Assembly: GCA_022509065.1 (NCBI GenBank)
Contig: JAFLTY010000022.1
Location: 1 to 39,075 of the forward strand
Direction: 5' to 3'
Length of the DNA stretch: 39,075 nt
Origin: Muribaculaceae bacterium
GTDB taxonomy: Bacteria; Bacteroidota; Bacteroidia; Bacteroidales; Muribaculaceae
Shown: piece by piece, positions 5,291-39,075 of the stretch
Layout of the letters: the number at the start of each line of letters is the position of its first letter
Position numbering within the stretch: position 1 is the first letter of the stretch
Notes under the pieces: model-generated
Database searches by the model: none
The model's input: only the letters and a program-made list of their open reading frames with translations
Told to the model about the DNA's origin: nothing
Position numbers and translations under genes: made by a program

Positions 5291-6433
5291 TCAGTGCAAA
5301 AGCATCATCGACTGAGACAAATCGGATATCAAATCGGTCGAAACGCCTTGAATGACAGATGAAACAGTCCCGTCAGTATTAATAAGGAGAAAAGTCGGAT
5401 AAACCGTTATACCACATTTTCTGATTAGTGAATCCTCGCCATTGACAACAGGGAGCGATTCGGTAAGAGATGCATCGTCCGGTTTATTGCCGTCGCGGAA
5501 CACATAAACGCCGGTCACGTTGAAAGGCACAGCCTGCAGTGCACTTTCGACAGCAGCCAAAGCTTGTGGTGTTGACGCCACGTCGCTGTCAATGAAAGAC
5601 ATTAGGACAGGTTGCGCCAAGTCGTTTTCGCCACGTGAATGACTCATTCGACCTGCTCCAGGGACAATATATGAGAAAGTAGGCATGGCAGTACCGGGAA
5701 GGTTGTCAGCCTTGAAATTGGATGTTCGATACTTCTCGAAAATATCACCGTATCGCTCCATGAGGTATTCTTCGTTTATCGACGGACAATCGCCTGCGAC
5801 ATCGCTCCAAGTGTATTTAGCATTGACAAACTGTTCGGATATGCTTGCGGGATTGTACACAAAATCGATTTCGAGCGGGAGCCAAGTGGCTGTGTCAAAA
5901 GTATAGGTAAATTCAAGCGCGTCGTAACCGTTTACGGTACGTGACCCTGAGAGGACACCACGAGGCTCGTCAAACGAGTAGGTGTAAGTGGAGTCGTTGG
6001 CCATGGCTGCTATTGTTTTTGCGATGAACGGAGGCAAAATATCAGCGAACTGGGAGTTACGCGCCACTCCACCGCCATCGGCAGTGAAAGGTATGCTGTC
6101 CTCAACGACATGATATTCCTGGAGACGAGAGTCCCTGTATCGGAAATGATCGCCGTTACAGTAGCTACTGAAGCCTTGCGAGAGTTTATTACCGCGAGGC
6201 AATTTCCAGTCTATGAGGTAAGCGCACTCGGAGTAAGAGTCGGGAGTGTTAACCACCGTAAGCTCAATGTCATAAGCAACAGGATCGGCAGCAGATGGCA
6301 ACAAAACCTCGTAACGCACATGAGCCTGTTTGCAATCGAAAGTGTTGATACGCGCAGGCAGATCCATACCTTGAGCGACACCACACAAACATGAACCGGA
6401 AAGAAATAATGAAGCAATAATCTTATTCATCAT
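5291..6433 (-). CDS. Secreted protein with a C-terminal cysteine-less thioredoxin-like domain
   Basis: Start set at the ATG at 6433 (or the adjacent ATG at 6430); the frame also opens at a weaker TTG at 6448. A signal peptide (MNKIIASLFLSGSC...) precedes about 220 residues of beta-rich sequence of unknown family. From about residue 245 the pattern matches a TlpA/thioredoxin fold: a strand PVLMSFIDSD (275-284), a helix, a strand GVYVFRD, then the cis-Pro loop YPTFLLINTDG from residue 345. The position where CxxC would sit reads SDVAST, so there is no redox pair and ordinary disulfide chemistry is not expected. It follows the DUF4831 gene by 15 bases and is probably in its operon. The role is unknown; a binding or scaffold function is inference. 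Confidence 0.7.
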   Translation of the reverse strand: MMNKIIASLFLSGSCLCGVAQGMDLPARINTFDCKQAHVRYEVLLPSAADPVAYDIELTVVNTPDSYSECAYLIDWKLPRGNKLSQGFSSYCNGDHFRYRDSRLQEYHVVEDSIPFTADGGGVARNSQFADILPPFIAKTIAAMANDSTYTYSFDEPRGVLSGSRTVNGYDALEFTYTFDTATWLPLEIDFVYNPASISEQFVNAKYTWSDVAGDCPSINEEYLMERYGDIFEKYRTSNFKADNLPGTAMPTFSYIVPGAGRMSHSRGENDLAQPVLMSFIDSDVASTPQALAAVESALQAVPFNVTGVYVFRDGNKPDDASLTESLPVVNGEDSLIRKCGITVYPTFLLINTDGTVSSVIQGVSTDLISDLSQSMMLLH

Positions 6434-6448
6434 AACAGTGACACTCAA

Positions 6449-7537
6449 TTATTTAGATCCGAGCTTTACAATAGCGCCGGTCACCGGCGAGAATTCGACA
6501 AAAGCAGGAGCTTTCTTGTCGGTAAACAACGCAGGGTCGATGCCGAACACAACACCCAACTGAGCGATATCGACATCGGCGCTGCCGATAATATTGCCGT
6601 TAAAATGCAGACTTATTCTCGCGCTGCCGGGTATAGAGTATGCCACTCCACCCTTAGGGAATTTCTTTGCCTCACCCTTTTCGTTCTCGGGCAACTTTCC
6701 TCGCGTGAGAATCTCATAGCTAAGATATAACGGAATACCGGACAAATCGTCCTTTGCCACAACACCTTCGATAGGCGAAACGCGAGCCAAGAGCACTTTT
6801 GACTCGTCTTCCTTACGAGGGGTAAAGGTTATTGTGGATACTTCGGTAAATGTTTTTACTGTGCCGGTAAACATGGCGGTAAGAGCGGCCTCCTGAGCAG
6901 AAAGACCTGCCAAAACGAGTTCTGTCGCTCTGCCGTCCGGTGGCATAGCCTCGGCATCACCGCTAAAAATGTCGTTGCGACGTTCGCGCAACTCGAAAAT
7001 ACGATTAGCAGCCGCCTGAGCCTTCCTGCCAATGGTGGTGCTAAGAGTCATCTCCTCAGTGACAGCTTCGCGAGCGGCCGGCGATTCGAGCGGAGTGGGC
7101 TGAGCCGGGACAGCTTTGGGGAGCTGAGGCGAAACAGGAGCGTCCGCATCGGTATTGATAGCCAAAGGTACACCATCCTCCATAAGTGACATTGTTACAC
7201 CGGAGCCATTTTTGAACTGGACCTGCCAGCGGTTGTCGGGGTCGGCTGTACCTCGTGGCGTTATAGTAACGGACTTAACAACGACAAGATGTTCGGGCTG
7301 ACGAATGACATTTTTGTCGGAGAGTCCTAAATGGCGGGTAGCATAGTTAAAGAATTCTCCGGGTTGCTTTATAGTGTGTTCGGTCTCAACGGTGATATCG
7401 ACCACAGTCATGGGCAACGAGTAGACTAAAGCATATTCGTTAGTCTTGTCGGCAGTGAACTTTTGGGTAGACTGCGCGAAACAAACCACTGACGTTCCTA
7501 AAAAAGCGATGGAAAATATTGTAGCAAATTTTTTCAT
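6449..7537 (-). CDS. DUF4831 family secreted protein
   Basis: A 362-residue protein with a clear signal peptide (MKKFATIFSIAFLGTSVVCFAQS). The mature start FTADKTNEYALVYSLPMTVVDITVETE and the later repeated beta-rich pattern resemble the DUF4831 family, found almost only in Bacteroidetes; this assignment is by recognition. The middle (about residues 140-165) is Pro- and Ala-rich and looks like a linker. No catalytic motif is evident. It lies 15 bases upstream of the thioredoxin-like gene and 99 bases downstream of nnr, all on one strand. The function is unknown. Confidence 0.75.
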   Translation of the reverse strand: MKKFATIFSIAFLGTSVVCFAQSTQKFTADKTNEYALVYSLPMTVVDITVETEHTIKQPGEFFNYATRHLGLSDKNVIRQPEHLVVVKSVTITPRGTADPDNRWQVQFKNGSGVTMSLMEDGVPLAINTDADAPVSPQLPKAVPAQPTPLESPAAREAVTEEMTLSTTIGRKAQAAANRIFELRERRNDIFSGDAEAMPPDGRATELVLAGLSAQEAALTAMFTGTVKTFTEVSTITFTPRKEDESKVLLARVSPIEGVVAKDDLSGIPLYLSYEILTRGKLPENEKGEAKKFPKGGVAYSIPGSARISLHFNGNIIGSADVDIAQLGVVFGIDPALFTDKKAPAFVEFSPVTGAIVKLGSK

Positions 7538-7636
7538 ATCTTAATCATATAGTGGGCATCAAAGAAAAATAGTTGCCTGGCGAAATATCAAAAAAGAAAA
7601 CCTAAACTTATCATATTAAAAAGCTAAAATTATCGG

Positions 7637-9169
7637 TCAATCGCCCATTATCTGTTTAATGGCAACTCCTATATTATCGGCGATGTCATTGGCTGTGACA
7701 CCATACTGACCGTTGCGTTGTTCGGCAATTTGCCCTGCGAGGCCGTGAATGTAAGGACCGACAAAGGCGGCGAGCTCGCTACGCATACCGGTTGCCATCA
7801 AACCTGTAATCAGACCCGTCAATACATCTCCAGCCCCGGCTGTAGCCATAGCGGGTGTACCCGTTGAGTTAAACATGAGTTGCCCGTCGGGACGTATGAC
7901 GGTAGTGTAACGTCCTTTGAGGACAATAACCACCATATAGTCTTCTGCACATTTTATGGCTTTGCGTAGACGCTCCTCGTCGGATGACGATTCTCCGAAA
8001 ATCCTGTCAAACTCACCTGCGTGAGGAGTAATAACTGACAAAGCGGGGAGGAAATTAAGGATGAGTGGACGAGTCGCGATGATATTCAGGGCGTCGGCAT
8101 CGATAACCAACCTTCGGCCGGCTGCCTGAGCGCTTTTAACAAATTTCTCGAAGGCATTTGCTGTTTCCTCGGCCGTTCCTATTCCACAACCGACACCGAC
8201 AGCATCGTATTTGTTTGAGAACGGCATCTCGGTCATACAATCATTTTTTTTCGTAGGGACAAACATTGCGCATGGAGCGGCAGATTGCACGATATCACAG
8301 CCGTCGGCACAACTTATGACAGATACCTTTCCGGCGCCGGATCGCAAGGCACCGCGAGCAGCGAGCACGGCCGCCCCCATCATGCCACGGCTGCCGGCTA
8401 TCAACAAGGCGTGACCATAATCGGCTTTCGAAGAAAACTCTTTACGTCGCGGCAACATGCGTGACACTATTCCTCGATCGACGTAAGTAAAAGTAAAAGG
8501 AGCCTCTTTTATGGCAGCTGTATCGAAACCAATGCGTATAGTTTTCCATTTACCTACCACTTCGGCGTTTTCGGCCAACATAAAGGCCAGCTTAGGAAAC
8601 TCGACGGAAAGAGTGAGCGAAGCGTGCATCATGTCGTTACGAACGGACGCACCATTCCATTCGGACATTAAACCGGATGGGATGTCAATGCTAATCACAT
8701 AAGCGCCGCTCTGATTGACACTATGAGCAATGAGCTGGAAACTGCGAGGCATAGTGCGATTAAGCCCACGACCAAAGAGGCCGTCGATAACAGTAGCGGA
8801 AGACGGTGGTTCAACCCATTTGAACGATTCGGCACCCGTCACCTCATAGAAAGTTACCGCGGGAGTTTCGGCCAGACGTAAACGCATAGCGTCACAAGAA
8901 GGAGAGAGACGCTGACCACCAATATTAAAGAGGTAAACGACAGGCTTGTAGCCATCGAGGGCGAGAAGACGAGCCGATTCAAGAGCGTCAGCACCGTTAT
9001 TGCCCCACCCTGCAAGAACTATAAGGAGCCCATCGGGACGGCAAACCATTTTAACCTCTTCGGCGACTGCGGACGCGACACGTTCGACCAAATCAAGTTC
9101 GGTGATGTTCTGTGCCTCAAGAGTACGTTGTTCAATTTGCTGTATCTCCTCGTTAGAAAGTATCTTCAT
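7637..9169 (-). CDS. nnr: Bifunctional NAD(P)H-hydrate epimerase / ADP-dependent dehydratase
   Basis: Repairs damaged NAD(P)H: the N-terminal YjeF_N (NnrE) domain epimerises R-NAD(P)HX to the S form, and the C-terminal ribokinase-like NnrD domain dehydrates S-NAD(P)HX using ADP. At 510 residues it has the usual length of the fused protein. NnrE motifs are GWGNNGAD (54-61), GLFGRGLNR (130-138) and DIPSG (162-166). NnrD motifs are TPHAGEF (381-387) and the anion-hole/catalytic stretch NSTGTPAMATAGAGDVLTG (434-452), with Asp448 as the probable catalytic base. It is cytoplasmic. The ATG at 9169 is the start; a promoter lies at 9224-9193. It is divergent from dxr. Confidence 0.95.
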   Translation of the reverse strand: MKILSNEEIQQIEQRTLEAQNITELDLVERVASAVAEEVKMVCRPDGLLIVLAGWGNNGADALESARLLALDGYKPVVYLFNIGGQRLSPSCDAMRLRLAETPAVTFYEVTGAESFKWVEPPSSATVIDGLFGRGLNRTMPRSFQLIAHSVNQSGAYVISIDIPSGLMSEWNGASVRNDMMHASLTLSVEFPKLAFMLAENAEVVGKWKTIRIGFDTAAIKEAPFTFTYVDRGIVSRMLPRRKEFSSKADYGHALLIAGSRGMMGAAVLAARGALRSGAGKVSVISCADGCDIVQSAAPCAMFVPTKKNDCMTEMPFSNKYDAVGVGCGIGTAEETANAFEKFVKSAQAAGRRLVIDADALNIIATRPLILNFLPALSVITPHAGEFDRIFGESSSDEERLRKAIKCAEDYMVVIVLKGRYTTVIRPDGQLMFNSTGTPAMATAGAGDVLTGLITGLMATGMRSELAAFVGPYIHGLAGQIAEQRNGQYGVTANDIADNIGVAIKQIMGD

Positions 9170-9192
9170 GATGGTTTTATTTTTTCAGTATG

Positions 9193-9224
9193 CAAATTTA
9201 TACATTTTTAAATAAAAACCCAAG
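9193..9224 (-). promoter_or_regulatory. Probable promoter of nnr
   Basis: On the minus strand CTTG (9224-9221) and TAAATTTG (9200-9193) lie 20 bases apart, a 3/4 match at -33 and a full match to TAnnTTTG at -7. The nnr ATG follows 24 bases later. Confidence 0.5.
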
Positions 9225-9324
9225 CACAAGCAACGAGCAAGAAAAAATAACTTCAAATTTTAGTACCATTGCCGGCTCTAAACACTTCCATGACATATTT
9301 ATTGACGAACCAGGTTATTATGAT

Positions 9325-9356
9325 ATTGCAGGGGAATATAAAAATTAGTAACTTTG
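9325..9356 (+). promoter_or_regulatory. Promoter of dxr
   Basis: ATTG (9325-9328) and TAACTTTG (9349-9356) are spaced by 20 bases, matching the Bacteroidetes promoter. Transcription would start near 9363. That excludes the TTG start at 9354 and supports the ATG at 9390. Confidence 0.6.
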
Positions 9357-9389
9357 TGGGTTGTATTAATAGTGAGAAGCATTTCTTAT

Positions 9390-10676
9390 ATGACAGAAAA
9401 TACAGCCAACAACATGAACGAGAGCACGAAAAGCGCGCCATCGAAGCATATTGCTCAAAACGCCGAGTTGACTGAGACAAGCACCGGTAAAGAAACGCGC
9501 CAACCTTTGCGACTCGCAGTATTAGGGGCGACGGGATCGATAGGCAGGCAAACACTCGACCTGGTGGCAGCGCATCCGGAGCGTTTCGAACTTGTCACCA
9601 TGTCGGTAAACTCTCGGACAGACGAAGCGTTAAAGGCAGTATCGAAATTTCATCCCCAAACGCTTGCCGTATGCGATGAGCATGCAGCGCGTGGCATTCG
9701 CGACATAATGAAAAGAGATTTCGGGAGCACAGAGCTTGTTACCGGAAGCGATGCCATGACAGAGATAGCTACGCGAGACGATGTAGATATGGTAGTTACG
9801 GCGACTGTGGGATACAGCGGTTTACTGCCTACCGTTGCAGCCATCAAGAAAGACAAAGACATAGCATTGGCCAACAAAGAAACCCTTGTGGTAGCCGGTG
9901 ACTTGATTTCAGAACTGCTAAAAACATCGCGAACACGTATTTATCCCGTTGATTCGGAGCACTCGGCCATAGCGCAATGCCTCGAGGGCGAAGAGCGAGA
10001 TAATGTACACCGCCTCATCATTACAGCTTCGGGAGGTCCTTTCCGAACGCTGACGGCTAAGGAGCTTGAACAGGTCACAGCGGCCGATGCGTTACGCCAT
10101 CCCAATTGGAGTATGGGGGCGAAAATTACCATCGATTCGGCCACGATGATGAACAAGGCATTCGAAATCATTGAGGCTCACCATCTTTTCGGTATAGCAC
10201 CAGACAAAATAAATGCCATCGTGCATCCGCAATCCATAATCCATTCGATGGTAGAGTTTAAAGACGGCGCCATAAAAGCCCAGTTGGGCATCCCTGACAT
10301 GCATCTGCCCATAGCGTATGCACTGGGAATGCACCACCGCATAGCAGGAGCTTCGGGGTATCTTACCTTCGAGCAGATGCACAATCTCACTTTCGAGCAG
10401 CCTGACACAGAGCGTTTTCCGTGTTTGACATTTGCGAATACGGCGCTGATCCGTAAAGGCAATACAGCATGCATAATAAATGCTGCCAACGAGGTCGCAG
10501 TGGACGCTTTCCTGCATGGACGCATCAGATTCACCGACATTTTCGATGTAGTGGCACATACGCTTGAAAACATAGATTATGAAAGCTCTCCCAGACTTGA
10601 AGACTATATTGAAACCAACACATTAAGCCGCAGAAAAGCTGAAGAGTATATCAATAAGTATAAAGTGATAAATTGA
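9390..10676 (+). CDS. dxr: 1-deoxy-D-xylulose 5-phosphate reductoisomerase
   Basis: Second step of the MEP isoprenoid pathway: NADPH-dependent conversion of DXP to 2-C-methyl-D-erythritol 4-phosphate, in the cytoplasm. The NADPH fingerprint GATGSIG follows LRLAVL. Metal and substrate motifs are DSEHSAI, SGGPFR and the NWSMGAKITIDSATMMNKAFE region. The start is the ATG at 9390, placed by the promoter at 9325-9356; an ATG at 9414 is also possible. Either way the protein carries about 30-39 polar residues before the first beta strand, which most Dxr proteins lack. The gene precedes rseP by 22 bases and probably shares its transcript. IspD of the same pathway lies at 29248-29943. Confidence 0.96.
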   Translation: MTENTANNMNESTKSAPSKHIAQNAELTETSTGKETRQPLRLAVLGATGSIGRQTLDLVAAHPERFELVTMSVNSRTDEALKAVSKFHPQTLAVCDEHAARGIRDIMKRDFGSTELVTGSDAMTEIATRDDVDMVVTATVGYSGLLPTVAAIKKDKDIALANKETLVVAGDLISELLKTSRTRIYPVDSEHSAIAQCLEGEERDNVHRLIITASGGPFRTLTAKELEQVTAADALRHPNWSMGAKITIDSATMMNKAFEIIEAHHLFGIAPDKINAIVHPQSIIHSMVEFKDGAIKAQLGIPDMHLPIAYALGMHHRIAGASGYLTFEQMHNLTFEQPDTERFPCLTFANTALIRKGNTACIINAANEVAVDAFLHGRIRFTDIFDVVAHTLENIDYESSPRLEDYIETNTLSRRKAEEYINKYKVIN

Positions 10677-10698
10677 TCAAACCCGACAATAGATATAA

Positions 10699-12174
10699 AT
10701 GGAGACCATATTAATAAAAGCCGCCCAACTTATACTGGCATTTGTCATTCTTGTCACGATACACGAGTTCGGACATTATATCTTTGCCAGGATATACGGC
10801 ATGCGCGTAAGTAAATTCTATCTATTCTTCAATCCGTGGTTTTCGTTGCTTAAATACGACCCCCGAAAAAACACCTTACAACTTATAGCCTGGACGAAGA
10901 AAGTAAAAGGTAAAGACGGTAAAGAGACGACGCAAGAGGAACCGCGAGCTCTCAAGACATTTCGTTTAGGCAAGCCCCATCCTTCAACCAATCCTGACAA
11001 GCCTGGGTGGCGAGACACTCTTTACGGCATAGGCTGGTTGCCGCTTGGCGGTTACTGCGCCATTGACGGTATGGTTGACGAGACCACCGACGCCTCTCAA
11101 CTGAGCGCCGAGCCACAGCCGTGGGAATTCCGCGCGAAAAAGCCTTTCCCTCGCCTCATGGTCATGATGGCCGGGGTGATAATGAATTTCGTGTTAGCTA
11201 TCATCATCTACATAGGGATAGCATTGTATTGGGGCGACCGCTCGATACCTTTCGATAACGTATCGGAGGGCTGGGATTTCGCACCTGAGCTCAAGGCTGC
11301 GGGGCTACAAGACGGAGACATGCCCATACGAATTGACGACACTCCTATCGACAATACAGACGATATGGTGTTCTGGCGCTTTATTCAAGACGGAGCGAAG
11401 ATTACTGCAGTGCGTAATCACACTGATACTATCACCGTCACTATACCTGATGGCACTCTCGCCATGTACGCGGATCCTGACCGCAAACGCGTACCTATGG
11501 CCCTGAGAGTACCTGTAATAGTATCGCAGATATCGCCTGGCGATGGTGCCGATAAAGCCGGTATCACTGTCGGTGACCGTATAGTCAAGATAGCCAATGA
11601 CACTACACCCTCGTACTCGGAACTAACTCAGGCTCTTAAAGAAAACGCCGGTAAGACCATTGAAGTTGGCTTAGTACGTAACGGATTACCGATGAAAGTT
11701 AAGGCAGATGTTAGCGAGAACGGAACACTCGGCATAGGCCTGACACCTCCCGACCAGATATATGACTTTGACCGCATCAATTACGGATTTTTCGAGGCTA
11801 TTCCCATAGGAATCGGCCGAGGTGTGGACAAACTGACCAGTTATGTCTCCTCGCTAAAACTGCTGTTCACTAAACAAGGTGCCAAAAGTGTAGGAGGTTT
11901 CGGAGCCATTGCAGACATGTTCCCGGAAAAATGGAACTGGGAATCGTTCTGGTATCTCACAGCCTTTCTATCTGTTATCCTGGCATTTATGAATATACTG
12001 CCCATACCGGCTTTGGACGGTGGCCACGCGCTCTTCACCCTCGTAGAAATAATAACACGTCGCAAGCCGTCGGAGAAATTTCTTGGTTACGCCCAGATGG
12101 TCGGAATGGCTTTCCTTTTCCTCTTGCTGATATACGCCAATTTCAACGATATATACCGATTTCTGATTAAATAA
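10699..12174 (+). CDS. rseP: RIP zinc metalloprotease (RseP/site-2 protease family)
   Basis: A 491-residue intramembrane zinc protease that cleaves transmembrane substrates such as anti-sigma factors or signal-peptide remnants in the inner membrane. The zinc motif HEFGH is at 22-26 in the first transmembrane helix. The third zinc ligand lies in the NILPIPALDGGH motif near the C-terminus. Two PDZ domains (roughly 195-270 and 270-355) sit between the second and third membrane helices. A cytoplasmic insert of about 60 residues after the first helix (KKVKGKDGKETTQEE region) is common in Bacteroidetes homologues. It directly follows dxr. HtrA at 20184-21647 acts in the same envelope-stress context in other bacteria, but no anti-sigma gene is seen here. 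Confidence 0.95.
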   Translation: METILIKAAQLILAFVILVTIHEFGHYIFARIYGMRVSKFYLFFNPWFSLLKYDPRKNTLQLIAWTKKVKGKDGKETTQEEPRALKTFRLGKPHPSTNPDKPGWRDTLYGIGWLPLGGYCAIDGMVDETTDASQLSAEPQPWEFRAKKPFPRLMVMMAGVIMNFVLAIIIYIGIALYWGDRSIPFDNVSEGWDFAPELKAAGLQDGDMPIRIDDTPIDNTDDMVFWRFIQDGAKITAVRNHTDTITVTIPDGTLAMYADPDRKRVPMALRVPVIVSQISPGDGADKAGITVGDRIVKIANDTTPSYSELTQALKENAGKTIEVGLVRNGLPMKVKADVSENGTLGIGLTPPDQIYDFDRINYGFFEAIPIGIGRGVDKLTSYVSSLKLLFTKQGAKSVGGFGAIADMFPEKWNWESFWYLTAFLSVILAFMNILPIPALDGGHALFTLVEIITRRKPSEKFLGYAQMVGMAFLFLLLIYANFNDIYRFLIK

Positions 12175-17998: not shown

Positions 17999-19225
17999 AT
18001 GAATGTAACTGAACGCTTTCTTAAATACGTCACTTTTGACACTCAGAGTGATGAACTGACAAATCTCACGCCATCAACACCGGGCCAGATGGTTTTCGCC
18101 AAATTCCTAAAAGAACAACTGGAAGAACTGGGGCTAACCGATATAACTCTTGATGACAATGGCTATCTAATGGCCACATTGCCTTCGAATGTCGACTATG
18201 CCACACCTACGGTAGGTTTTATAGCCCATCTTGATACAAGTCCCGACATGTCCGGTCGGAATGTCAATCCTCGTATTGTAAAAGACTACGATGGTAAAGA
18301 CATTGTGCTGAATAGCGAAAAGAAAGTGATACTTTCGCCATCCGAATTTCCCGAGCTCACACATTATGTTGGTGAAGATCTGATAGTGACAGACGGCACC
18401 ACATTGCTTGGCGCCGATGATAAAGCAGGTATAGCCGAAATTATCTCTGCTATGGCATATCTCTTAAAACATCCTGAAATAAAGCATGGCAAAATCAGAG
18501 TCGGATTTAATCCTGACGAAGAGATAGGTCTTGGAGCCCATAAATTCGATGTGCCGACCTTCGGATGTGACTTCGCATATACGATGGATGGCGGTGAGAT
18601 AGGCGAATTGGAATACGAGAACTTCAATGCGGCAATGGCAAAAGTGACATTTGTCGGTCGCAACGTTCACCCCGGCTATGCCAAACACAAAATGGTCAAC
18701 TCCATGCGCATCGCAAATCAATTCGTCATTATGTTACCGCGATGGGAAACGCCTGAACACACCGAAGGGTACGAAGGATTTTACCACCTTGTCGGCATGG
18801 AAGGAACTGTAGAGAAAACAGTGCTCACTTATATTATCCGTGACCATGACCGAGACCGCTTTGAACGCCGTAAAAAAGAATTCGAACACCTGGCACGCAA
18901 AATCAACCATGAGTTTCCCGATTGCTGTTCGCTCGAAATCAAAGATCAATATTATAATATGCGCGAAAAGATTGAGGACAAGATGGATATAATTCATATC
19001 GCCGAACAGGCCATGCGCGACTGCGATATTGTTCCAAAAGTCGTTCCTATCCGCGGAGGCACTGACGGCGCTCAGCTTTCTTTCAAAGGTCTCCCCTGCC
19101 CCAATATTTTCGCTGGCGGCCTTAATTTTCACGGCCGCTATGAATTCGTACCCATCCGTTCAATGGAAAAGGCTCGTGATGTCATAATCAAAATCGCCCA
19201 GATCGTTGCAAACGATAAAAAGTGA
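17999..19225 (+). CDS. pepT: Peptidase T (tripeptide aminopeptidase, M20B)
   Basis: A cytoplasmic di-zinc enzyme that removes the N-terminal residue of tripeptides. At 408 residues it has the normal PepT length. Motifs: HLDTS at 77-81 (His77 zinc ligand, Asp79 catalytic support), LLGADDKAG with the bridging Asp (140 or 141), NPDEEIG with Glu174/Glu175, MDGGE near 197 and NFHGRYEF near the C-terminus. It could process peptides delivered after extracellular DPP III and other peptidases act, which is inference. The miaA frame starts within or just after its 3' end. Confidence 0.96.
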
Positions 19226-20108
19226 ACATACCGGTAAGACCTTATTACCGCATGTGACAATAATAACCGGGCCGACAGCCTCAGGAAAAACAGCTCTTGC
19301 TGTCCGGACGGCTCAACGGCTCGGTTGTGATATTATATCGGCCGATTCACGCCAAATATACCGAGGAATTCCCATAACCACGGCTGTTCCGACATTTGAA
19401 GAGCGTGGTGGCGTGAGACACCATCTTTTGGAATGTCTGGATCTGAATCAGCCCTACAGTGCCGCGAACTTTGCTTCAGATGCGTTGAGAATAATTTACG
19501 AAGCCGGAGTCCGACAAGAAAAAAACATCATAGTTTGCGGAGGATCGATGTTATATATCGACGCTTTACTTGGAAAACTCGATGACCTTCCTGACATATC
19601 GCCTGAAGTAAGAAAACGCGTTCTCGCCCTTCACGAAGACATAGGGATGGAAGGCCTTTTGGCACTCCTTTCCAATCTTGATTCGACAACTTATGAACGT
19701 GTTGATAAAAAGAACCCACGCCGCGTTATGCATGCCGTAGAATTATGTCTACAAACCGGTAGACCGGTTTCTGAGTTTGTAGGCAATGCTCTCAACCGCC
19801 AATTACCCTTTAGCTACAACATTTATGCTGTGAAGATGTGCCGGGATGAGCTTTTCGAGCGTATCAACAAACGGGTCGAGATTATGGTAGAGGCAGGTAT
19901 GGAGACGGAAGCACGCTCGGTTTTTCATCTGCGGCATCTCAACTCGCTTAACACTATTGGTTTTAAGGAGTGGTTTGACTATTTCGATGGAAAAATGGAT
20001 CGTGACACAGCGATACAGCGAATAGCCAAGAACACTCGCGTATATGCAAAAAAACAACTGACTTGGCTAAAAGCCCAGTCAGATGTTTTAGATGCCAAGT
20101 TTCTTTAG
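19206..20108 (+). CDS. miaA: tRNA dimethylallyltransferase
   Basis: Transfers a dimethylallyl group to A37 of UNN-decoding tRNAs (i6A37). The P-loop GPTASGKT is at 22-29 counted from the TTG at 19206, followed by the conserved DSRQIYRG. The C-terminal [12 protein letters not shown] motif is present. The start is unresolved: TTG at 19206 overlaps pepT by 20 bases and gives 300 residues, while GTG at 19254 gives 284 residues starting [12 protein letters not shown]. No ATG is available. The dimethylallyl donor comes from the MEP pathway, to which dxr and ispD in this window belong. The last coding segment contains a strong hairpin (20053-20087) that is likely used as the terminator of the convergent htrA gene. 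Confidence 0.94.
20048..20089 (-). terminator. Intrinsic terminator of htrA inside the 3' end of miaA
   Basis: Read on the minus strand: AGCC/GGCT, CTGACT/AGTCAG and TGTT/AACA pair around a 3-base loop with only two mismatches (20087 to 20053). The stem is followed by a run of seven T (20054-20048). This is a good intrinsic terminator about 100 bases after the htrA stop. On the plus strand it is followed only by TTTTA and lies before the miaA stop codon. Confidence 0.65.
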
Positions 20109-20183: not shown

Positions 20184-21647
20184 TTAGTCTACAAGGGTGA
20201 CGGCATAAAAAGCTTGTCTTCCCGTGGGAGTAAGTGCTTTGATAAACAACACCTTGTCATCATCACTTTTCATGACGGCATTGTAAATCTTTTCGACATC
20301 GGAAGGTTTATTCACCTGAGCTCCGTTGACAGTAAGCAAAACTGTGCCTTTCGATATACCGGCGTTGCTGAAACGACCTGTTTCCACATCTTCGACAAGA
20401 ACGCCATAACGTACCTCGAGTTGTTGTTTTTCGTCAGCGGTGAGTTCGCGCATTGTAGCGCCCAGATCAGACACCGAGCCGGCGCGAGTCACAGCAGTGT
20501 TACCCTGACGGTTTCGTAACTTCACAGTCTTCTGTAACTCTTTGCCATCCCGAATCAGAGTGACAACTGCCGTATCACCGGGGCTTAAACGAGCGATAAC
20601 CTCTTGTAAATGGGCTGTCGATATGGTAGGATGTTCATTAATGGCTATGATAATGTCTCCCGGCTCTATGCCTGCTTCACGAGCTGCCGAACGATCTTCG
20701 ACACTATCAACCCAGATACCTGCGTTGACGCCTTCAAGTTTTTTCTCGGCGATAAGTTCAGGTGTCAATTGTACGAACATAATACCCAAATAGGCTCGTT
20801 GAACAGCTCCAAACTGTTTGAGGTCGCCTATTACTTTGCTTACGATGGATGTAGGTATGGCAAACGAACAGCCAATATAAGCTCCATTCTGGCTGTATAT
20901 GGCGGTATTGATACCTACCAACTCACCTTCGAGATTGACAAGGGCACCACCCGAATTACCTTGATTGACTGCGGCATCGGTTTGGATGTAACTCTCGATA
21001 CCTCCCGACGAAGGAGTTCCTGTGGTGGTGGAAATATTACGAGCCTTCGCACTGACGATACCCGCTGTCACAGTTGATGTGAAACCAAAAGGATTACCGA
21101 CTGCTAACACCCATTCGCCAACCTTAAGGTCTTCACTGTCGCCCATAGGTATGACATGCAGGTCTGGAGCGTCAATCTTTATCAATGCTATATCAGTAGT
21201 GGGATCGGCTCCAACCACAGTGGCATTGAAATTACGATTGTCATTTAGAGTCACCTCAAGTCGCTCTGCACCGTCAATAACATGATTATTGGTAACTATA
21301 TAACCGTCAGTGCTGATTATCACACCTGAACCGAGGCCAATTTGACGTTGAGAAGGTTTTTCCTGCTGGCGAGGCTGTTGTCTCGGTGAAGACGGCTGTC
21401 CGAAAAAGTATTCGAAGAAAGGGTCACTGAAAAAATCGCGCTGACTGTATTGCTGCCGCGTCTGAGGAGTGGCGTACGACTTGACACTGACAACACCATT
21501 GACTGTAGATTCAGCCGCGCGTGTAAAGTCTTCGCGACTATAACCGGCATGCTCCATCACTACGGTCGTTCCAGGTTGATCTCCTGCCACACAAGCGCTT
21601 GTGCCTAAGGCACTGATGCAAATAAGGGACAAAAATATTTTCTTCAT
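20184..21647 (-). CDS. htrA: Do/DegP-family periplasmic serine protease
   Basis: A periplasmic protease and chaperone for damaged envelope proteins. The 487-residue protein has an N-terminal export signal (MKKIFLSLICISALGTSA), then a Gln/Pro/Arg-rich loop (about 83-100) typical of the LA loop. The trypsin-like domain has the triad His122 (TNNHVIDGA), Asp152 (TTDIALIKID) and Ser232 (NQGNSGGALVN). Two PDZ domains follow at about 275-375 and 385-487. It stands alone on the minus strand, convergent with miaA and divergent from the beta-galactosidase. No standard Bacteroidetes promoter is visible upstream, so a stress sigma factor may drive it, which is inference. Confidence 0.95.
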   Translation of the reverse strand: MKKIFLSLICISALGTSACVAGDQPGTTVVMEHAGYSREDFTRAAESTVNGVVSVKSYATPQTRQQYSQRDFFSDPFFEYFFGQPSSPRQQPRQQEKPSQRQIGLGSGVIISTDGYIVTNNHVIDGAERLEVTLNDNRNFNATVVGADPTTDIALIKIDAPDLHVIPMGDSEDLKVGEWVLAVGNPFGFTSTVTAGIVSAKARNISTTTGTPSSGGIESYIQTDAAVNQGNSGGALVNLEGELVGINTAIYSQNGAYIGCSFAIPTSIVSKVIGDLKQFGAVQRAYLGIMFVQLTPELIAEKKLEGVNAGIWVDSVEDRSAAREAGIEPGDIIIAINEHPTISTAHLQEVIARLSPGDTAVVTLIRDGKELQKTVKLRNRQGNTAVTRAGSVSDLGATMRELTADEKQQLEVRYGVLVEDVETGRFSNAGISKGTVLLTVNGAQVNKPSDVEKIYNAVMKSDDDKVLFIKALTPTGRQAFYAVTLVD

Positions 21648-34991: not shown

Positions 34992-35042
34992 ATAGATTGA
35001 TATTATAAAAATATGATTTTTCAACAATTAAACTATCAGTGT

Positions 35043-35089
35043 TATAAGATCTCTTATATCATCTGATTGTAGAGACATGTCGGACATGT
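35043..35089. promoter_or_regulatory. Two perfect dyads upstream of the mannosidase
   Basis: TATAAGA-TC-TCTTATA (35043-35058) and ACATGTC-G-GACATGT (35075-35089) are both perfect inverted repeats with 7-base arms. Their centres are about 31-32 bases apart, roughly three helical turns. They sit 52-98 bases upstream of the mannosidase ATG and could be operators. They differ in sequence, so they need not bind the same protein. Confidence 0.35.
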
Positions 35090-35404
35090 TTGCCAATTCA
35101 AATTATATTTATGTATTGGCTTTTAGACATACGATGCAATATTCATATTTTCTATTGCAAATCAGTCTAAGGGTTAGTTGTATAGCTCTCTAAAGTAAAT
35201 TTATTGATAGTTCTGCATACAAATTTATAAATTTATTATGAATTCATATAAAAAATCACAGGTAATTACCAATCTCTTCATTTCTTCAATGATTCCAATG
35301 GTTCTTCATTGGTTTTTCAATTTACAAATCTCGATTTTTTGTTTGCAAATTTGTGAAAATTTGCTTTTAGTAGTTTAATATCGAACCAAATAAGCCAATG
35401 GTTT

Positions 35405-35436
35405 ATTGTTTCCCAAATTATTTTTCGCTAACTTTG
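35405..35436 (+). promoter_or_regulatory. Promoter of the WG-repeat protease / HEPN pair
   Basis: ATTG (35405-35408) and TAACTTTG (35429-35436), 20 bases apart, repeat exactly the boxes seen before dxr. The ATG at 35463 follows 26 bases later. Confidence 0.6.
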
Positions 35437-35462
35437 CAAAATAAATTCTAAAAAAAATAAAA

Positions 35463-37745
35463 ATGAAAAAAATAGTATATATACTCTTCATCATTTTATC
35501 AGTTACATTCTTTTCGTGTCATAATAATTCTCCCGAAAAGGAAAAAGACTCCAATCTTTTGAGAATTCAAATTGGCGATAAATTTGGCTTCATAAATGAG
35601 AATGGAAAGATCATAATTGAGCCCCAATTTGATGAGGCTAATTTAACATTTGTAGATGATAAATGCTTTGTAGTAATTGGAGAAAGAAAAGGGATTATCA
35701 ATTCAACTGGCGAATTTATATTTGAATTACCGGATTCTGTTATATATGCCTACCCTTATTTAGAAGGATTCGCAAAAGTTAAATTAAAATCAGGTGCATA
35801 TAATATAATTGATTCGTTAGGATCTTTTATTTTTAATAAAGCAAAATATAAAATTGAAATTATTAATGATAATGGTAATATTTATTTTTTGGGAGTGGCT
35901 TATCCGGATAGTTTAATGGTAAATAAAGAATCTAATTGGATTGTCTCTGACGAGGCCGGTGTTATTTTATATGAAAACGAAGATAGTATAGGAGGGTTTA
36001 GTGAAAATTTGTGCCCAATAAGAGTTAATAATAAGTGGGGATATATTGATATTAATGGTAAAGTTGTTATAGAGCCGCAATATGATTATGTCCGAGCTTT
36101 TACTACTCAAAAAGTTGCAAGAGTAAAGAAAGATGGTTTAGAATTTTATATAGATGATAGAGGAAATACTCTTTTTTCCTGCGACAAAGCATTAACCCCA
36201 TTAGAATTTGACCGATCAATCATTGAAAAAAATGGAAAAAAGTTCCTAGTAGATTCAAAAGGATATTCTATTTGCTCAATAGATGCTGACGAAGTATATG
36301 GTTTTAAAGAGACTGATAGTTTAGCAACCATAATAAAAGATGGGAAGGCTTCTAAGATTAATCTTGAAGGTAAAATCGTTCTTAATACTAAATATGATGA
36401 TATCGAAAAATTTATCAATGGTGTTGCCATAGTGACGAAGAATGAAAAATTCGGTGTGATTGATTTGAAAGGTAATGAAATTATCACTCCATCTTTTGAT
36501 GTACCTGGTCCATTATCCGCAAATGAATATGGATTATCATCAACCATAAAAAATGTTATATGTTTGGTAAAAGTAGAAAATAATCAAGGTATCTTCTATT
36601 ATTTTGATTTGAATGGAAACTTAATTGGGAAGGATATGCCTAATGCTGTAGGCTATCTTCCTAACAATCCCCAAAAAGAAGATTTTGTTAAATATTTTGA
36701 TGCAAAATTAGCGGAATTAGACCCAATTGAAGGTTTATATTATGTAACTTATAAAGATTATTATCAAAACAGAATTAATCCTGATATTATGGGATTGAAT
36801 AGTTCTTCTTCAGTATTTTATGCCGTATTAAAGGATACTGATTATTCTGGATATGTTGTATTATATGCCGATGGCAAAAATAATTGGTGGGTGAATAAAT
36901 TCGTTCGCATTGGCGAAACGAATGACTATGCCATAATCCAAAACGAAAGGTTCAACCAAAATAGAGAAAAATACTCTTCGGAGGGTAAAGTTACTATTGA
37001 AGACCCATCAAAATTTGAATTTAGGTTAGAAAAAGAACATAATAGCAATTATAATTTTTTTGTTACTTATGAATTTGTAAAAGACTATCCGCCCTTGTCG
37101 GAGTATGAGAAAATTCAACAAATTGATTGGACTGGATCAGGTTTTGCTATTGCAGACGGATATATTGCGACGAATTATCATGTTACCAGTGGAGCAAAAA
37201 ATATTCGCATAAGAGGCGTGAATGGAGATTTTGATAAATCATATAAGGCGATGGTTGTGGCGTCAGATAAAGAACATGATTTAGCAATAATACGCATTGT
37301 AGATAAGGATTTTGATGGGATAAAAGAAATACCATACCAAATTGGCAAGTCATCCGCAGATGTTGGAGAGAATATATTTGTGTTAGGTTACCCTCAAATA
37401 GACACTATGGGTGAAGAAATTAAATTAACAGAAGGTGTTATCAGTGCTTTAAGCGGCTATAAAGGAAATCAATCGATGTTTCAAATTTCGGCTGCTGTAC
37501 AACCGGGAAATAGTGGTGGACCATTGTTTAATGAAGAAGGTAATGTAATCGGTGTAGTTTGCGCCAAACATGCAGATGCAGAGAATGCCAATTACGCAGT
37601 GAAAGTTTCTTATTTGTTCTCTCTTGTTAACTCATCAAATCTCGGCATTAAACTTTCTGATAATAAAATCAATGAAAATAAGGTTAGTAGCATTGTTAAA
37701 AAAGTAAAGAACTTTGTCTATCTAATAGAGTGTAGCAGTAAATAG
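35463..37745 (+). CDS. Lipoprotein with WG-type repeats and a trypsin-like serine protease domain
   Basis: 760 residues. MKKIVYILFIILSVTFFSC is a lipoprotein signal with Cys19 lipidated, so the rest should face the periplasm or cell surface. Residues about 34-346 hold eight or nine WG-type beta repeats (pattern: FGFID..GK.II.P.FD), best seen at 41-57, 189-208 and 326-346. Residues about 405-545 form an unassigned region (LDPIEGLYYVTY, VFYAVLKDTDYSGYVVLYADG). The C-terminal domain is a trypsin/HtrA-like protease with His573 (ATNYHVTSG), Asp606 (EHDLAIIRI) and Ser684 (QPGNSGGPLF); no PDZ is visible. Very AT-rich codon use contrasts with neighbours and suggests transfer. It is followed after 8 bases by the HEPN-like gene. 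WG repeats probably bind a ligand or partner and the protease acts on an unknown target; both are inference. Confidence 0.85.
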   Translation: MKKIVYILFIILSVTFFSCHNNSPEKEKDSNLLRIQIGDKFGFINENGKIIIEPQFDEANLTFVDDKCFVVIGERKGIINSTGEFIFELPDSVIYAYPYLEGFAKVKLKSGAYNIIDSLGSFIFNKAKYKIEIINDNGNIYFLGVAYPDSLMVNKESNWIVSDEAGVILYENEDSIGGFSENLCPIRVNNKWGYIDINGKVVIEPQYDYVRAFTTQKVARVKKDGLEFYIDDRGNTLFSCDKALTPLEFDRSIIEKNGKKFLVDSKGYSICSIDADEVYGFKETDSLATIIKDGKASKINLEGKIVLNTKYDDIEKFINGVAIVTKNEKFGVIDLKGNEIITPSFDVPGPLSANEYGLSSTIKNVICLVKVENNQGIFYYFDLNGNLIGKDMPNAVGYLPNNPQKEDFVKYFDAKLAELDPIEGLYYVTYKDYYQNRINPDIMGLNSSSSVFYAVLKDTDYSGYVVLYADGKNNWWVNKFVRIGETNDYAIIQNERFNQNREKYSSEGKVTIEDPSKFEFRLEKEHNSNYNFFVTYEFVKDYPPLSEYEKIQQIDWTGSGFAIADGYIATNYHVTSGAKNIRIRGVNGDFDKSYKAMVVASDKEHDLAIIRIVDKDFDGIKEIPYQIGKSSADVGENIFVLGYPQIDTMGEEIKLTEGVISALSGYKGNQSMFQISAAVQPGNSGGPLFNEEGNVIGVVCAKHADAENANYAVKVSYLFSLVNSSNLGIKLSDNKINENKVSSIVKKVKNFVYLIECSSK

Positions 37746-37753
37746 TTATTTAT

Positions 37754-38653
37754 ATGTCACATTTCGATTATAATCCTATAGCCCAATTTTTAACACTTAA
37801 ATTTTGCTGTCCCAAATGTTCCAATCATGAGGAAACAGAACCTTTCTTTGTCCCTACTCCTGATTTCGCTGCAGAAACTCACAGAGAAAGTGTGAACTCA
37901 GAATTTTTCAAGCATATTTGTTCAAAATGTAACTATGAATTTGATATTGAACTTCATAATGGTTATAATGGAGGTTCTGGTGAAATTTCTGGGTTAGGAG
38001 ATAATTCATTCTTAGATGTAGTAGAAGAATTTGAGGAATATGACAATGGTTGGGAATATGAATATATAGAGGAACATGTAAGAGATATTGTAAAGGCAAT
38101 AGATGCAATAGAAGATTTGAGCCAGAATATTAAAAGCATTCTCTATAAAAATTTATATGCTAACTTAATTGGCATAATGGAAGCCTATCTTTATGAAACA
38201 ATACTTCATACGGTTATGAGCTCAGAAAATTCAAAAAGGAGATTTGTTGAAAATTTTAAAGATTATACTAATACGGAGATTTCTATTGCTAATATATATA
38301 AGAATATTGATGAGATTGACACACGTATACGTCACTCTCTTGATAATTTATTATATCATAATCTGCCAAAAATTAAACCATTATTTAAAGATACAATTGA
38401 TATTGATCTCGGAGACATTTCACTCCTTATTAAACCAATAAATAAAAGGCATCATATTATACATAGAAATGGAAAAAATATCCAAGGAGAGGTGGTCTCT
38501 GTTGAAAAAGATGAATTACTGAATTTAGTCAATATAATTTCAAATTTTATAGAACGTATAGAAACCCAATTACATCCTCATCATCCGGATTTATCGGATT
38601 TTTTAAGTGAAGATGCTTTTGGAAAATTGAATGAGATTGACATATCGGTTTGA
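37754..38653 (+). CDS. Zinc-ribbon protein with a HEPN-like C-terminal domain
   Basis: 299 residues, no signal peptide, so cytoplasmic. The N-terminus holds a CxxC pair at Cys19/Cys22 and another at Cys56/Cys59, as in a zinc ribbon. An acidic stretch (about 88-108) links to an all-helical region (about 108-272). This region carries RHHIIHRNG with Arg232-x4-His237, the RX4-6H signature of HEPN domains, which are often RNases in toxin and defence systems. The helical pattern (YANLIGIMEAYLYETI early, the motif late) fits HEPN topology. It shares very low GC with the upstream gene and starts 8 bases after it, so the two are almost certainly co-transcribed. HEPN assignment is by motif and helix pattern only; whether it is an active RNase is unknown. 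Confidence 0.72.
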   Translation: MSHFDYNPIAQFLTLKFCCPKCSNHEETEPFFVPTPDFAAETHRESVNSEFFKHICSKCNYEFDIELHNGYNGGSGEISGLGDNSFLDVVEEFEEYDNGWEYEYIEEHVRDIVKAIDAIEDLSQNIKSILYKNLYANLIGIMEAYLYETILHTVMSSENSKRRFVENFKDYTNTEISIANIYKNIDEIDTRIRHSLDNLLYHNLPKIKPLFKDTIDIDLGDISLLIKPINKRHHIIHRNGKNIQGEVVSVEKDELLNLVNIISNFIERIETQLHPHHPDLSDFLSEDAFGKLNEIDISV

Positions 38654-38665
38654 CGGTTTGCATTT

Positions 38666-38827
38666 TTATCCATTGGCCAGGTCTCGTCCAACGATGTTGC
38701 CGCAGAGTGTGGTGTTACCTCGGCTATTATCGTAGAGTTGGTCGGGCGTCACAATCTCGCCATCATTATTTGACAGTGCCCTCATTACTTGTCGGCTCAC
38801 TTTGGATTTCCACGTAGAGCCTTGTTG
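38666..38827 (-). pseudogene. Remnant of the 3' end of an unidentified gene
   Basis: On the minus strand 53 codons are open between an in-frame TAG (38830-38828) and a TAA (38668-38666). The translation contains RALSNNDGEIVTPDQLYDNS followed by RGNTTLCGNIVGRDLANG, which reads like real protein rather than a shadow frame. There is no plausible full-length start, only an internal ATG. I do not recognise the family. It is best explained as the truncated tail of a gene lost by insertion or decay next to the tRNA. Confidence 0.35.
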
Positions 38828-38976
38828 CTATAAGGCATTTGGTCTATCGACATTCAACCTCGTTGAGTATTGTATGTAAAGACTGCGGAGATATCGGAGA
38901 GTGCAGTCGGAAGTCTCCAGTTGAACCTACTCTGCCTGCTTGTTGAAAGCAGGGTAAGAAAGTTTGGAGTGAAAAA

Positions 38977-39008
38977 TTTGGCAGATAAAAAAAAAGTATG
39001 TAATTTTG
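38977..39008 (+). promoter_or_regulatory. Promoter of tRNA-Val
   Basis: TTTG (38977-38980) and TAATTTTG (39001-39008) with a 20-base spacer match the Bacteroidetes consensus; the tRNA begins 17 bases after the -7 box. Confidence 0.75.
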
Positions 39009-39024
39009 CAACGCTTTTGGCAAA

Positions 39025-39075
39025 GGGCGTTTAGCTCAGCTGGTTCAGAGCATCTGCCTTACAAGCAGAGGGTCG
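39025..39075 (+). tRNA. tRNA-Val (anticodon UAC), truncated by the window end
   Basis: The sequence starts with the acceptor strand GGGCGTT, then TAGCTCAGCTGG of a standard D arm, and an anticodon stem-loop CTGCC-TTACAAG-CAG with anticodon TAC for valine. The T arm and the 3' acceptor strand lie beyond the window. It may be the first of a tRNA cluster. Confidence 0.9.

Follow-up and report, generated by a model that had tools for sequence, protein, structure and literature searches.

An AT-rich stretch of a Muribaculaceae genome encodes a candidate exported WG-repeat protease and a HEPN-like protein with separate relatives on mobile DNA

Near the end of a contig of a Muribaculaceae bacterium (JAFLTY010000022.1, assembly GCA_022509065.1; the 39,075 nucleotides analyzed here are referred to as the window), two genes on a common strand, gene A (35463-37745, 760 aa) and gene B (37754-38653, 299 aa), lie 8 bases apart in AT-rich DNA. 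Gene A encodes a trypsin-like protein with WG repeats and gene B a HEPN-like protein, which raises the question of whether the two form one system or are separate passengers of the same stretch. The original prediction described a mobile two-component accessory system, possibly for defence, with the repeat protein as sensor and the protease and RNase as responders. The coordinates confirmed the close spacing on which it was built. We favor, with about even confidence, the explanation that the locus is horizontally acquired cargo, most likely anti-phage, whose two genes act separately behind a common promoter.

In the genomes and loci searched, the pairing of A with B was not conserved. Counted at thresholds of E 1e-28 to 1e-40 only, A-like genes were present in 9 of 198 family genomes at E 1e-30 (the window's own included), in 10 of 307 at E 1e-28, and in 10 of 395 genomes of the phylum at E 1e-40. 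B-like genes were found in 4 of 198 (E 1e-3) and 4 of 397 (E 1e-4) family genomes, own included, and in 2 of 395 of the phylum. These genome samples overlap, those for A and B differ in membership, and the window's own genome was the sole one on both lists. Moreover, phmmer searches of 37 loci (18 around relatives of A and 19 around relatives of B) recovered none with both genes; A and B were the only queries, so that HEPN proteins from other families would have escaped notice, and among the loci L018, L019, and L024 are truncated by contig ends and G672 was judged from its list of open reading frames (ORFs) only. With no second genome or locus carrying both genes, a fixed A-B pair was rejected within what was searched. 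The homologues found there occur apart, the outcome that the original prediction had itself named as refuting, and the proposal of a repeat sensor answered by an RNase could not be upheld for this pair, although the sensor-effector idea is partly revived by three other loci, described below, where a protease of this type is followed by a different cytoplasmic-looking protein.

Composition set the locus apart from its genome. GC content was 31.5% in gene A and 29.9% in gene B versus 46.1% in positions 1-35027 of the window, and the local values reported previously (25% at 38221-38280 and 55% at 10021-10080) held. None of 633 own-genome windows was lower in GC than the stretch 35463-38653 (31.0%); these overlapping windows of 3190 bases each, which sampled at most the first 20 kb of 20 among the 91 own contigs as well as positions 1-35027, had a mean of 45.8% (standard deviation, 3.2) and a minimum of 31.7% on own contig C7. 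The latter contig holds a second AT-rich stretch (L106, ~5600-11700; down to 31.7% GC per 3190-base window), the ORFs of which look exported. By composition, the insertion-like stretch in the window extends over 35028-38653 (30.4% GC) and lies between host-like DNA, with matches to genus genomes on its right side from 38937 or later. Contamination is unlikely, because both flanks match relatives from the genus: on the left, the flanking alpha-mannosidase gene has relatives 58-62% identical in 4 of 49 genus genomes, and on the right 47 of the 49 match part of the window tail, all within 38937-39075 (tRNA-Val and leader) among the matches listed. Only weak two-copy matches were found as repeats within the AT-rich stretch.

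The architecture of gene A (35463-37745, + strand) was that predicted for a WG-repeat/trypsin lipoprotein. It comprises a lipoprotein-like signal with a lipobox-like Cys19 (read by eye), WG repeats at residues ~31-390 (PF14903, 1.4e-34), a linker at ~391-548, and an HtrA-like trypsin domain at ~549-760 (PF13365, 1e-28) with the catalytic residues H573, D606, and S684 in place. No PDZ domain was found in the Pfam scan; the window's own HtrA (20187-21647), which has one, served as the control for defence-model matches, and those of gene A were judged generic because this housekeeping HtrA yields identical models. RT-Protease XI of PADLOC was likewise rejected, given that residues 528-723 alone match, that Pfam shows no reverse transcriptase domain, and that the housekeeping HtrA also matches this model. 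A structure model of gene A was not used (predicted local distance difference test score, pLDDT, 33), and no description of the gene was found in the literature searched or among 'WG repeat' titles, judged by titles only.

The best relative of gene A is a 747-aa protein on the IMG/VR contig L132 (53% identical along its full length, with the catalytic triad conserved). The trypsin parts are 69% identical and the WG parts 43%, and synonymous divergence (pS) of 0.79 versus nonsynonymous divergence (pN) of 0.29 indicates a protein under selection. The gene is AT-rich (38% GC) and sits between the portal and terminase genes, on the strand opposite to those for portal, head protease, major head protein, and terminase; a 95-aa ORF precedes the terminase, and the contig carries an integrase. 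A promoter-like site lies 61 bases upstream, albeit of a kind matched in 17 of 200 shuffles, and a strong hairpin with seven T follows shortly past the stop. This is the layout of single-gene phage cargo, a 'moron'. A gene of the B type was absent from the L132 locus. L132 was detected solely by an alignment of four proteases; as single queries against viral contigs, gene A, the protease of G013, the HExxH protein of G147, and the SIR2-like protein of G101 returned no relative.

Other near relatives also bordered mobile DNA. The protease gene of G013 adjoins a plasmid mobilisation gene with an integrase ~5 kb away, that of G147 is ~2.5 kb from an integrase, and that of G123 (g20) is in two pieces, one with stops, around an IS1595-family transposase gene. 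Within the genus of G101 the protease was present in 1 of 6 genomes, G101 itself. The protease gene was GC-poorer than DNA 3-7 kb off in 9 of 9 loci measured, where the value for G123 takes in the inserted stretch. A Pontibacter plasmid carries an A-type protease followed, ~280 bases on, by a SocA-antitoxin-domain gene (L065:3104-5434).

Gene B (37754-38653, + strand) combines a zinc-ribbon-like N terminus (C19/C22 and C56/C59) with a putative C-terminal HEPN domain bearing the motif RHxxxHRxG (R232, H237). Residues R232, H233, H237, R238, and G240 were invariant in nine aligned sequences (gene B and eight relatives), matching the Rx4-6H pattern. Pfam gave no HEPN match for gene B itself; among ten relatives scanned against RiboL-PSP-HEPN (PF18735), L016 and L030 scored above the cut-off (33.6 and 35.6 bits versus 28.4), three fell below it, and five gave no match. 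R232xxxxH237 is intact in gene B, in keeping with the HEPN-like assignment. Relatives of gene B were found in 43 of 72,556 plasmid records, 7 of 50,697 phage records, and two IMG/VR contigs, and Treponema putidum carries one (31% identity). B-like genes were GC-poorer than the rest of the locus in 12 of 17 measured (of 19 loci). No serine protease was annotated in the 12 regions opened around B relatives; several have close same-strand neighbors of other kinds, and within 8 kb of some, in a survey without a control, are HipA, RelE/Phd, an abortive-infection gene, NACHT, RES, a caspase-family gene, and recombinases. The N-terminal modules of B relatives include CxxC-CxxC, HEPN_Toprim_N, and HNH, which fits the joining of HEPN domains to varied N-terminal domains set out in the portion consulted of the published survey (PMC3710099). 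On two viral contigs (L034:5647-6615 and L035:5569-6537), an HNH-type N terminus is fused to the HEPN type of gene B; L034 is above the HNH cut-off of Pfam and also close to PtuB models, and L035 is just below. Relatives of either gene thus turn up on phage or plasmid DNA unaccompanied by the other, and these data, together with the lowest GC of the stretches sampled and the mobilisation and integrase genes beside relatives, bear out the description of the locus as mobile and accessory.

How the two genes are read was approached by pattern scans. A promoter-like site, TTG-N20-TAnnTTTG, which we take to be the Bacteroidota-type consensus, lies at 35406-35436 on the + strand, 26 bases upstream of the gene A start. 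This pattern occurs six times in the window versus 0.61 expected in shuffles, and no copy of exact spacing falls within gene A or the A-B gap. A sigma-70-type scan gave 32 sites versus 21.5 expected, some of them within the genes. Because a promoter-like site is present upstream, none of this spacing lies between the genes, and no terminator-like site was found in the gap, gene B is probably read from the promoter of gene A, in line with the single promoter proposed originally.

Some grounds for a coupling between envelope and cytoplasm came from the near relatives of gene A, that is, ten genomes of the family (the window's own included) and the phage contig L132. A cytoplasmic-looking partner of one of three kinds is packed behind the protease in 4 of these 11 loci, the window included. 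In G101, a single base separates the protease stop from a SIR2-like gene (PADLOC SIR2, 6.6e-13; Pfam below cut-off); in G013, a 175-aa protein with HEVGH follows after 60 bases; and in G147, a 109-aa ORF overlaps the protease end and is directly followed by a 172-aa protein with HELGH that shares 38% identity with the HEVGH protein. The HExxH reading is motif-based, with no Pfam match and a weak PADLOC match to CapP (0.005) for one of the two; the HExxH and SIR2-like proteins had no match in searches of plasmids, and solved structures gave nothing useful for either. By eye, the 109-aa ORF of G147 (L023:8585-8911) resembles the C-terminal part of the G101 protease (L021:1565-1990), and the G147 protease gene may therefore be broken in frame near it. 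No partner is packed behind the protease in L132, G672, G123, G096, G091, G050, or G040. The G096 gene has its start cut by a contig end and one internal stop. In G040, a YhcG-type nuclease gene lies ~470 bases downstream of the protease; two such genes (L025:1203-2219 and 6724-7827) and an IS110-family transposase are near it. In G091 and G050, two exported-looking proteins, 73% and 70% identical between both genomes, precede the protease in an AT-rich stretch (L026:5646-8356 and L027:6114-8797).

These loci allow a modular two-gene system to be proposed, in which a constant exported protease reports attack on the envelope and an exchangeable cytoplasmic effector responds; we regard this as a doubtful but serious alternative. 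Seen more broadly, it is a possible, if rather unlikely, mobile defence family with a constant exported HtrA-like protease, in some cases bearing WG repeats and in others standing alone on a phage, and swappable effectors, envelope-sensed damage or phage contact being answered inside the cell. The putative effectors do differ by locus (HEPN RNase in the window, SIR2-like protein in G101, and HExxH protein in G013 and G147), the three proteases are 39-41% identical to gene A, and the four hosts belong to four genera. A precedent exists in trypsin-like peptidases, some with membrane segments, that are encoded with a NucA-type nuclease and for which a proteolytic cascade was proposed, according to the part of that source considered (PMC7159879); this coupling of peptidase and nuclease may keep a coupled reading open here as well. 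However, 7 of the 11 near loci have no packed partner, an A-type gene was found at 0 of 19 loci of B relatives, and a route for an exported protease to signal inward is not known. The tally of 4 in 11 stands without a control for the neighbors of cargo genes generally, and it is a lead rather than a result. The topology difficulty raised by the original prediction also persists, in that signal-like N-terminal segments (by eye) begin gene A, the three relatives aligned with it, and the phage relative on L132.

It is unlikely, in our estimate, that gene A encodes just an ordinary protease for envelope quality control or nutrients in an AT-rich region, with no anti-phage role and with B as a chance neighbor. 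HtrA-type proteases are the typical envelope quality-control enzymes, and some of the nine distant relatives of gene A elsewhere in the phylum lie, by eye, beside genes for ATP synthase, valyl-tRNA synthetase, and phosphoglucomutase; against this, gene A lacks a PDZ domain, and its near relatives are patchy (9 of 198 family genomes at E 1e-30, own included) and have mobile surroundings: a phage contig in one case, and elsewhere an adjacent plasmid mobilisation gene or integrases close by. The 8-base gap and an RNase-type HEPN gene could also suggest a toxin-antitoxin pair, B being a toxic RNase and A its antitoxin. This is highly improbable for a 760-aa protein with an export signal, and at the 37 loci relatives of A stood without B and relatives of B without A. 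The related candidate of a HEPN-MNT toxin-antitoxin was rejected for gene B, whose upstream neighbor is gene A and which is followed by short ORFs alone up to the contig end.

Several observations weigh against separate anti-phage cargo, the explanation that we nevertheless prefer. The 8-base spacing and common promoter are what a functional pair would show, and the three loci with other cytoplasmic-looking proteins behind the protease speak against pure independence. For gene B, the fold match was under the tool's safe level for helical bundles, and Foldseek gave no significant match. Because several distant A relatives have core-looking neighbors (by eye) and two of them (L098 and L099) lack a signal at the N terminus, other roles exist within the wider protease family. 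Finally, among 10 of the 22 other window ORFs of at least 120 aa that were scanned, all were core or metabolic (SHMT, IspD, RecG, IPP transferase, release factor, and others), their PADLOC matches were judged generic, and no defence gene was recognised. A defensive role is plausible; a defence island on that side was not seen among these ORFs.

Under the preferred explanation of separately acting cargo, the two proteins would probably work in different compartments. The product of gene A is predicted to be an exported, probably lipid-anchored serine protease, whose fast-changing WG repeats would bind a ligand and whose HtrA-like domain would cut an envelope protein. In a lysogen or a carrier of the element, this could lead to phage exclusion or another change of the cell surface; exclusion of other phages would be the likeliest benefit of a phage-borne envelope protein. 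The product of gene B is a putative cytoplasmic HEPN RNase, in which the zinc-ribbon-like N terminus may recognise a trigger, whereupon a dimeric HEPN site (R232 and H237) would cut RNA and growth would stop.

The right end of the window holds the first 51 bases of a tRNA-Val gene (39025-39075, + strand), cut by the contig end. ARAGORN missed this partial gene, which was recognised from tRNA-Val regions of relatives and own contig C28, and the tRNA neighbor described earlier was thereby confirmed. The last 27 bases of the window are identical to the start of C28, which continues with a second tRNA-Val and then core-looking genes (by eye); these tandem tRNA-Val genes (L112, C28 1-182) account for the assembly break at the window end. 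An ORF remnant suggested at 38654-38971 found no backing, as none of the matches listed in 49 genomes starts before 38937. Insertion at the tRNA was considered but not borne out: gene B lies 5' of tRNA-Val, no integrase was noticed near B in the window, and an empty site did not come to light. A, B, and the mannosidase were all absent from beside the tRNA in 12 tRNA-Val regions fetched from relatives (L070-L081, of more that existed), the sole match to a window gene being one of 27% identity in L073 to gene 19206-20105.

An envelope protease that is carried by phages and whose repeat domain evolves faster than the catalytic part would be surface cargo of an unusual kind, and the differing neighbors offer a direct test of whether envelope sensing is linked to suicide effectors in the cytoplasm. 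Should the swapping prove to be chance, the locus would keep its value as a putative HEPN RNase architecture that includes a zinc-ribbon-like N terminus, and as a clear case of cargo genes arrayed behind a single promoter.

Among known systems, HtrA/Deg proteases share the trypsin-like domain and triad with gene A, which differs from them in having no PDZ domain and WG repeats in front. Gene A also differs from the lipoprotein Ltp, which is presumably not a protease. Ltp is described, in the part of the report considered, as a prophage-borne lipoprotein of superinfection exclusion, which stops DNA injection at the cell surface (PMC3952083); the likeness is one of logic alone, in that the best relative of A is phage-borne, and homology is not claimed. 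In the trypsin-like peptidase conflict systems, peptidases are likewise encoded with effectors, but with Trypco, vWA/MoxR, and NucA as partners and mostly in multicellular bacteria or alphaproteobacteria; WG repeats or a HEPN partner were not seen in the sections considered (PMC7159879), nor was an exported protease pair in the excerpts of literature on trypsin with SIR2 and HEPN. The RiboL-PSP-HEPN or MAE_18760-type proteins (PF18735), as characterised in the portion consulted (Anantharaman 2013; PMC3710099), share with gene B a C-terminal HEPN domain, the Rx4-6H motif, and exchangeable N-terminal domains, whereas gene B has a CxxC-CxxC N terminus, sits behind an exported protease gene, and misses the Pfam model. 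Tha, a 301-aa HEPN anti-phage protein of Staphylococcus aureus prophages, shows no sequence similarity to gene B (BLASTP E 0.34; profile comparison probability 0.3%), and its paper does not use the word zinc, in contrast to the zinc-ribbon-like N terminus of B. Tha nonetheless resembles gene B in being a single protein of ~300 aa with a C-terminal HEPN domain and an ArgX4His motif; it is described, in the part considered (PMC11087260), as working in the manner proposed for B, with RNA cleavage and growth arrest following a tail-protein trigger, and relatives of B are also found on phages.
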